DNA from: a bacterium
GTDB lineage: Bacteria > Verrucomicrobiota > Verrucomicrobiia > Verrucomicrobiales > Akkermansiaceae
Direction of reading: 5' to 3'
NCBI GenBank assembly: GCA_018222765.1
Contig: JAAEZT010000009.1
Location: 62,001 to 126,000, forward strand
Length of the DNA stretch: 64,000 bases
Of the stretch, positions 44,534 to 44,678 are shown in pieces. How positions within the stretch are numbered: position 1 is the stretch's first letter; each line of letters starts with the position of its first letter. The position numbers were made by a program, and so were the translations under genes. The notes beneath the pieces were generated by a model. That model searched no databases, had not been told where the DNA came from, and saw only the letters and a list, made by a program, of their open reading frames with translations.

Positions 44534-44556
44534 GTAAATAAAAAGCCTGCCGGCTT
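44534..44556 (-). terminator. Intrinsic terminator in the thiC leader
   Basis: On the minus strand the stem AAGCC/GGCTT (44552-44556 with 44543-44547, loop GGCA) runs into TTTTTATTT, 14-24 bases before the thiC ATG. CGGCAGGC within it can also pair with GCCTGTCG at the end of the upstream structured element (eight pairs including one G-U), which would give a switch between two folds. Confidence 0.65.
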
Positions 44557-44569
44557 CAAAATGAATGCG

Positions 44570-44678
44570 CGACAGGCGTGAGCTAGATTTCGGTCTGACT
44601 CCCAAACCCGCCTCAGCGGCTTTGGTGGTGAGGGTCTGATCTCAGAATCTCCGCCGGAACGGAAAAACACCCCTGTCG
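44570..44678 (-). ncRNA. Structured thiC leader, TPP-riboswitch-like 5' half with atypical 3' half
   Basis: The minus-strand RNA is closed by a perfect seven-pair helix, CGACAGG (44672-44678) with CCTGTCG (44570-44576). Inside, the order GGGGTG, a hairpin of UCCG/CGGA type, CTGAG and ACCCT is that of the pyrimidine-sensing half of a TPP riboswitch (GGGGUGC, CUGAGA, ACCC). The expected pyrophosphate-sensing part (ACCUGAU to GCGnAGGGA) is not found; instead there is a strong hairpin (44602-44625, CCAAA/TTTGG and CCGC/GCGG) and an unmatched segment. A TTGACA lies 35 bases upstream (44713-44718) with a weak CACGGT at the -10 position. A thiamine-related regulatory leader is likely from its position before thiC and its terminator; class membership is uncertain. 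Confidence 0.5.

Follow-up and report, generated by a model that had tools for sequence, protein, structure and literature searches.

The leader of thiC in a bacterium of the family Akkermansiaceae raises the question of what an RNA senses when it keeps only one half of a TPP riboswitch. Bipartite ligand recognition has been studied with this riboswitch class as a case (PMC4775224); according to the description in PMC4112796, P2 and P3 of the TPP riboswitch read the pyrimidine and P4, J4/5 and P5 the pyrophosphate. The window, by which we mean the whole stretch of 64,000 nucleotides that was analysed (GCA_018222765.1, contig JAAEZT010000009.1, positions 62,001 to 126,000), carries on its minus strand thiC and then thiD, preceded by a leader element that extends from 44677 to 44540. 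The initial annotation had described this element as half of a TPP riboswitch, with the pyrimidine-sensing elements in order, a hairpin in place of the pyrophosphate arm, and an intrinsic terminator behind it. The features of the locus are listed below.

44713-44718, minus strand: TTGACA, -35 box, beginning 41 nt upstream of GACAGG in the window
44592-44677, minus strand: whole TPP-derived aptamer region, from GACAGGGG to AGACC (R2, 85.1 bits; alignment A3)
44675-44677, minus strand: P1 5' strand GAC, pairing with GUC at 44597-44599 (invariant, 22/22)
44671-44674, minus strand: P2 5' strand AGGG, pairing with CCCU at 44631-44634 (invariant, 22/22)
44645-44668, minus strand: P3 hairpin, its basal mismatch UU/U(C or U) invariant (changes on both sides at 4 of 7 pairs)
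44640-44645, minus strand: CUGAGA, the pyrimidine-binding element (invariant, 22/22)
44631-44634, minus strand: P2 3' strand CCCU (invariant, 22/22)
44626-44630, minus strand: J2-4, CACCA, genus consensus YACYA (A3; NGAA in canonical leaders)
44602-44625, minus strand: P4 hairpin with a continuous base, variable in sequence and length, standing in for P4-J4/5-P5
44597-44599, minus strand: P1 3' strand GUC (invariant, 22/22)
44592-44596, minus strand: conserved RGACC directly 3' of P1 (only the first base varies, A or G)
44571-44580, minus strand: CACGCCUGUC, antiterminator 3' strand, pairing with GACAGGGGUG at 44668-44677 (9 of 10 pairs)
44540-44577, minus strand: intrinsic terminator, GCCUGUCG (44570-44577) with CGGCAGGC (44545-44552) and a U tract at 44540-44544
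42447-44519, minus strand: thiC, phosphomethylpyrimidine synthase (NF006763 (NCBIfam), 983 bits; TIGR00190, 671 bits)
41639-42493, minus strand: thiD, HMP/HMP-P kinase (TIGR00097, 229 bits against a cut-off of 205, for 41642-42445)

Read 5' to 3' from 44677, the element consists of GACAGGGGUGU, the P3 hairpin, CUGAGA, AGACCCU, CACCA, a single hairpin, GA, GUC, AGACC, CACGCCUGUC and the terminator, the U tract of which ends at 44540. The pyrimidine-side elements therefore do stand in their canonical order, and P1 is made of the same three pairs as in the canonical leader L031 in its Rfam alignment. The terminator is likewise as described, with a stem of eight pairs followed by the U tract, and no J4/5 internal loop interrupts the arm that follows ACCC. 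The 201-nt leader folds with z = -4.77 against shuffles, which, together with the presence of the element in 23 of 27 genomes of the genus, argues that it is not a product of chance. In 22 of the 23 genus leaders, TTGACA begins 39-42 nt upstream of GACAGG and so, despite the weak -10 box of the window's thiC promoter, the transcription start is probably a few bases ahead of the aptamer. Further upstream of this promoter, an AraC-type regulator gene (44797-45609, minus strand) lies on the same strand; its matches cover the C-terminal part. As for the target, the start of thiD is likely near 42445, and thiD adjoins thiC in two of the 15 genus loci L014-L028, as counted with a single regular expression that may miss a diverged thiD and with little sequence past thiC in L021. 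The thiC-thiD pair was thus discarded as a general target and the constant one is thiC.

The TPP model of Rfam, RF00059, has no match in the window by cmscan at the gathering score (54.3 bits), none at E<=10 in the 701 or 291 bases around the leader or in the whole genome, and none at E<=0.001 in 24 genomes of the genus. A canonical TPP riboswitch in another register or on the other strand is therefore ruled out for window, leader and genome. Weak Rfam matches near the leader (mir-3660, snoZ247, PhrS and group-II-D1D4-2), all on the plus strand and far below their gathering scores, were dismissed as chance.

To follow the element among relatives, 38 genomes were searched; thiC was matched in 32 of them, and 30 loci were taken for analysis. 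R1, a covariance model built on aptamer and terminator together, matches 23 of 27 genus genomes at E<=7.2e-27; three of the negative genomes (G018, G020, G023) have no thiC match and the fourth, G017, holds a C-terminal thiC piece only. Ten further weak R1 matches in genus genomes (E 0.07-0.95) were treated as noise. Among 288 genomes of the order, searched at E<=0.01 with stricter filters, R1 found 10 of the 11 genus genomes (the miss being G018) and none of the 277 outside the genus. RF00059 gives the complementary picture, with matches in 215 of the 288 sampled order genomes, yet in none of the 11 genus members, and in a smaller set, in 13 of 14 same-order genomes outside the genus and 0 of 24 inside. 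The one exception among those 14, G029, is the sole genome there free of a TPP riboswitch; its thiC (L013) has neither an RF00059 match nor the variant motif upstream, an apparent case of outright loss. A motif pattern run on a collection of 84,980 species returned 21 records, all of them MAGs, titled Akkermansiaceae, Verrucomicrobiales, Verrucomicrobiia or Verrucomicrobiota. In the genomes sampled, the variant is confined to one genus of uncultured Akkermansia-related bacteria.

Two alignments of the thiC leaders of these relatives bear on the structure. The first, a MAFFT alignment (A1), has sixteen genus leaders aligning over the element, leaving out L029, from a same-order genome outside the genus, and the canonical rows L002, L005, L011 and L012. 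The second (A2) fits 22 distinct sequences to the structure model, the identical elements of L066 and L067 (G002 and G021) being counted once. Under the model (P1 GAC/GUC, P2 AGGG/CCCU plus U/A, P3, P4 and terminator), 96.2% of the cells of the 22 sequences are paired. Eight pairs change on both sides, four in P3 and four in P4, and these helices hold all double changes of A2: 41 cells carry them, where shuffles give 13.3 (none of 500 reaching 41) and slid controls at most 9. Counted by pairs instead of cells, the double changes stand out less (8 against 5.5, a value reached by 24 of 500 shuffles), and additional pair types do not rise above shuffles (125 of 500; A2). A1 agrees, with 31 double-change cells against 9.3. 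In P4, four of five pairs change on both sides, the first pair, C-G, is invariant and 90% of cells are paired. P1 and P2 show no variation in the 22 sequences and thus no double changes, so that their support is conservation rather than covariation; antiterminator and terminator hardly vary within the genus and have no double changes either, the terminator stem being paired in 98.8% of cells over the 22 distinct sequences. For these four parts, the support comes from conservation, energetics and the comparison with the leaders labelled g20 (see below). With 41 aptamer columns invariant across 22 distinct sequences, against a mean identity of 45.6% at thiC fourfold sites (range 31-84%, 105 pairs from 15 genes), the aptamer appears to be under strong selection.

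What the alignments lack is the pyrophosphate half, as the initial annotation had claimed. None of the 22 variants has the P4-J4/5-P5 pattern, against 31 of 32 canonical loci (a count from which L121, the same site as L031, was excluded), and the one canonical locus without it, L043, scores 47.9 bits, below the RF00059 cut-off. In PMC8786325, C68 and G69, in the numbering of that paper, are described as hydrogen-bonding TPP near the pyrophosphate. CGNAGG is found in none of the 23 whole variant leaders, and CCTGA, which occurs in 15 of them, is read as the base of P3 plus CUGAGA and not as P4. We take C68 and G69 to be the C-G of J4/5. The junction has changed as well: J2-4 is YACYA in 22/22 variants and GAA in 31 canonical matches, and the GAA of J2-4 has a role in the k-junction. 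P3a, present in the canonical leaders of the order, is absent from the variant, as it is from some canonical TPP riboswitches elsewhere in the phylum. The second half, annotated as unknown, is therefore no longer wholly so; the pyrophosphate elements are indeed missing, and what stands there is a variable P4, an invariant YACYA/GA junction and an antiterminator/terminator platform. In the genus leaders, P3 and P4 thus covary, the helices are conserved and the canonical pyrophosphate arm is lacking.

The origin of the element can be followed with a second covariance model, restricted to the aptamer (R2), which scores the aptamer of the window's own genome at 85.1 bits (E 7.2e-16), this sequence being itself among the model's 22. 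In 387 genomes of the phylum, R2 matches 31 others at E<=0.1, and since the best 14 of these 31 outside matches are all RF00059 riboswitches (60-71 bits, E 7e-5 to 0.008), the variant is most simply derived from a canonical TPP riboswitch. In a set of 34 loci of the order, R2 has 11 matches at E<=10, and none scores above 21 bits. The shared parts are readily seen in the canonical leaders: GACAGGGG opens 19 of the 20 examined, as it does in the variant, they carry CUGAGA or CCGAGA, and most of them end in GGGAGUC or GGAAGUC. A ThiC tree (44 rows, one gene, midpoint root; without L116, which gave no ThiC, and L006, L007, L011, L029 and L030) places the 15 genus rows in one clade (100/98). Together with canonical carriers, namely three g20 rows, g19 and one g14 row, this clade makes up a group (93/94) that in turn sits in a wider group of the family's canonical carriers (100/99); the tree gives no branching order within the inner group and singles out no sister of the genus. 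In the same tree, the ThiC of L114 (G108, genus g13) is on a very long branch, with 1.2 changes per column, and its leader nonetheless carries a canonical TPP riboswitch.

How such an element would act on thiC depends on the role of a second helix. GACAGG pairs perfectly with CCUGUC, as had been annotated, and past one G-G mismatch, the helix extends as GUG/CAC to 9 of 10 pairs. The helix had been taken to close the aptamer; the pairing stands, and the closing role most likely does not. Given that the canonical P1 and P2 pairs are present and that the same pairing recurs in three g20 relatives, the canonical GAC/GUC and AGGG/CCCU appear to serve as P1 and P2 of the aptamer, and GACAGG..CCUGUC is most likely a competing antiterminator. 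The nine pairs between GACAGGGGUG and CACGCCUGUC form in 22/22 sequences and none varies, and CCUGUC is also part of the 5' half of the terminator. Conservation speaks for both folds: CAC lies outside the terminator stem, yet is invariant, which indicates that the long helix is real, and CCCU, GUC and CUGAGA lie outside the long helix, yet are invariant, which indicates the same for the TPP-like fold. RGA of RGACC sits in a hairpin on the antiterminator side, which pairs in 22/22.

Conservation, the covariation of P3 and P4, descent, the loss of J4/5 and the mutual exclusion of the two pairings come out of the computations; from there, a direction of switching and the binding of a small molecule can be inferred. 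We consider it likely that the element is a TPP-derived OFF switch that acts on thiC by terminating transcription and whose ligand site has been rebuilt, whichever the ligand may be. Such a cis-acting riboswitch would have kept P1, P2 and the CUGAGA pyrimidine pocket, lost the J4/5 pyrophosphate sensor, and remodelled three parts, namely the fourth helix, the junction and the base of P3. As long as no ligand is bound, the 5' strand GACAGGGGUG would pair with the emerging CACGCCUGUC and thiC would be transcribed; a ligand, which should carry the thiamin pyrimidine, would hold GACAGGGGU in P1 and P2 and free CCUGUC, so that the terminator forms and thiC is turned off. In leaders cut before the 3' half of the terminator, the long helix is 0-2.0 kcal/mol from the minimum in 23/23, and the P1+P2 form, without ligand, is 13-17 kcal/mol above it. 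In whole leaders, the form with P1, P2 and terminator lies 4-12 kcal/mol above the minimum and is less stable than the antiterminator form in 23/23, by 0.4-11.8 kcal/mol. Antitermination would thus be the unliganded default according to the folding energies, and as the P1+P2 forms are energetically unfavoured, switching would have to be kinetic, with the ligand acting during transcription. P1 of the variant has just three pairs.

The g20 leaders support this direction. Given that a 10-mer complementarity scan was inflated by G-U pairs, a plain search for CCUGUC was used instead, which located it 3' of the aptamer in L112, L115 and L120 alone among 20 canonical leaders; these are three of the four labelled g20. 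When cut, their RNAs adopt the long helix of the variant; L112 and L120 have a clear terminator and L115 has no clean one. In these leaders, TPP should free CCUGUC and lead to termination, and by descent the variant should terminate likewise with its own ligand.

Which ligand this would be is a more tentative matter. A compact compound of the ThiC/ThiD branch, HMP-P or HMP-PP and then HMP, is our leading candidate, proposed with some reserve, since only the first pair of the P4 arm is fixed and no conserved pyrophosphate site is seen on it, which favours a compact pyrimidine ligand; the change to HMP or HMP-P suggested in the initial annotation is a live hypothesis. Thiamin or TMP seems improbable, and the absence of any small-molecule ligand no less so. 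Taken as a whole, a TPP descendant without the pyrophosphate sensor that now senses HMP-P, HMP-PP or HMP and lets the product branch of ThiC feed back on ThiC itself, as far as known the first ligand-changed variant of the TPP class, is a reading that we put forward tentatively.

A ligand that is still TPP, its pyrophosphate gripped by new residues (the YACYA junction, RGACC or the P3 mismatch) instead of J4/5, is possible but somewhat more doubtful, HMP-P, HMP-PP or HMP being somewhat likelier than TPP held in this new way. It is compatible with the OFF mechanism, the gene and the pyrimidine pocket are the same, and in close relatives thiC is preceded by a canonical TPP riboswitch that has this antiterminator as well. 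Moreover, the window's genome encodes ThiE, ThiG and ThiL, and with the pathway to TPP present and no RF00059 sensor in the genome, TPP feedback on thiC may still be needed. Across the 38 relatives, ThiE is found in 37, ThiG in 35 and ThiL is matched in all 38, over the cut-off in 29; within the genus, the numbers are 23/24, 22/24 and, over the cut-off, 19/24. Partial loss of the thiamin pathway as the reason for a new ligand is unsupported, since the window's genome has all three. Against TPP in a rebuilt site stand the missing P4-J4/5-P5 pattern in 22/22 and the variability of the P4 arm beyond its first pair, as well as the behaviour of canonical aptamers, which are described in PMC4112796 as binding thiamin 1000-fold more weakly than TPP (50 uM against 50 nM) and as requiring contact with the pyrophosphate arm for switching.

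The opposite direction of switching, in which GACAGG.GUG/CAC.CCUGUC closes the ligand-bound aptamer and a ligand such as the substrate of ThiC promotes transcription of thiC, is unlikely. The long helix is indeed the more stable fold and invariant, and the HMP-PP thiS motif, as described in PMC6478431, is a precedent for an ON switch in the thiamin pathway. However, an ON switch would strip the invariant CCCU and the ordered GUC and CUGAGA of their usual roles (P2, P1 and pocket), and three close relatives with a canonical TPP aptamer adopt this long helix as their unliganded fold. Weaker still is a decayed, ligand-free TPP riboswitch retained merely as an attenuator or stabilising leader, which would account for the missing pyrophosphate arm and J2-4 GAA and the short P1, but not for 41 invariant columns in 22 aptamers, model-unpaired bases such as CUGAGA and YACYA among them, against 46% identity at thiC fourfold sites.

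Compared with known systems, the OFF switch proposed here shares with RF00059 the P1 GAC/GUC and P2 AGGGG/CCCU with its unpaired G (22/22), CUGAGA (22/22), the GA linker before P1 and the site upstream of thiC, and with three g20 canonical leaders the antiterminator. It differs in having no P4-J4/5-P5 sensor with C-G in J4/5, no GAA in J2-4 and no P3a, and in the UU/UY mismatch at the base of P3. As model score, J4/5 and J2-4 GAA all fail, we do not class it as RF00059, although it would presumably work like an RF00059 riboswitch. The thiS-motif HMP-PP riboswitch, as described in PMC6478431 (Atilho et al. 2019), is also a leader RNA of the thiamin pathway on a terminator platform, but its aptamer is embedded in the terminator and it is an ON switch before HET-P genes, whereas here the aptamer (44592-44677) precedes the terminator (44540-44577) and the genes are thiC and then thiD. 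Identity with that motif was thus rejected, the aptamer being outside the terminator and the gene not HET-P. The ykkC subtypes (PMC7266159) and the guanine-class variants (PMC9295807) are riboswitch variants of altered ligand choice, likewise known scaffolds with an altered pocket in some lineages. The ykkC variants, in the account of PMC7266159, arise by mutating specific nucleotides near the pocket; in the thiC leader, unlike in those, the entire sensor arm is gone. No TPP riboswitch variant of such a kind was found in the open-licence literature.

Surveys of thiamin control based on RF00059 will miss this variant. In a coastal study of B1 that used RF00059, the Verrucomicrobiota share of the thiC transcripts is reported to reach 18% at individual time points, a figure given for the phylum (PMC10881298). 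A genus-wide, strongly selected element without the pyrophosphate half also offers a direct test of how aptamers are rebuilt, for which the close relatives that carry a canonical aptamer on the same antiterminator serve as controls. In two of these relatives (L115 and L120, g20), as well as in L029/L036 (G031), a small ORF lies between the canonical TPP riboswitch and thiC; by eye, it appears to encode a membrane protein of roughly 60-75 residues, which may itself be regulated by thiamin.
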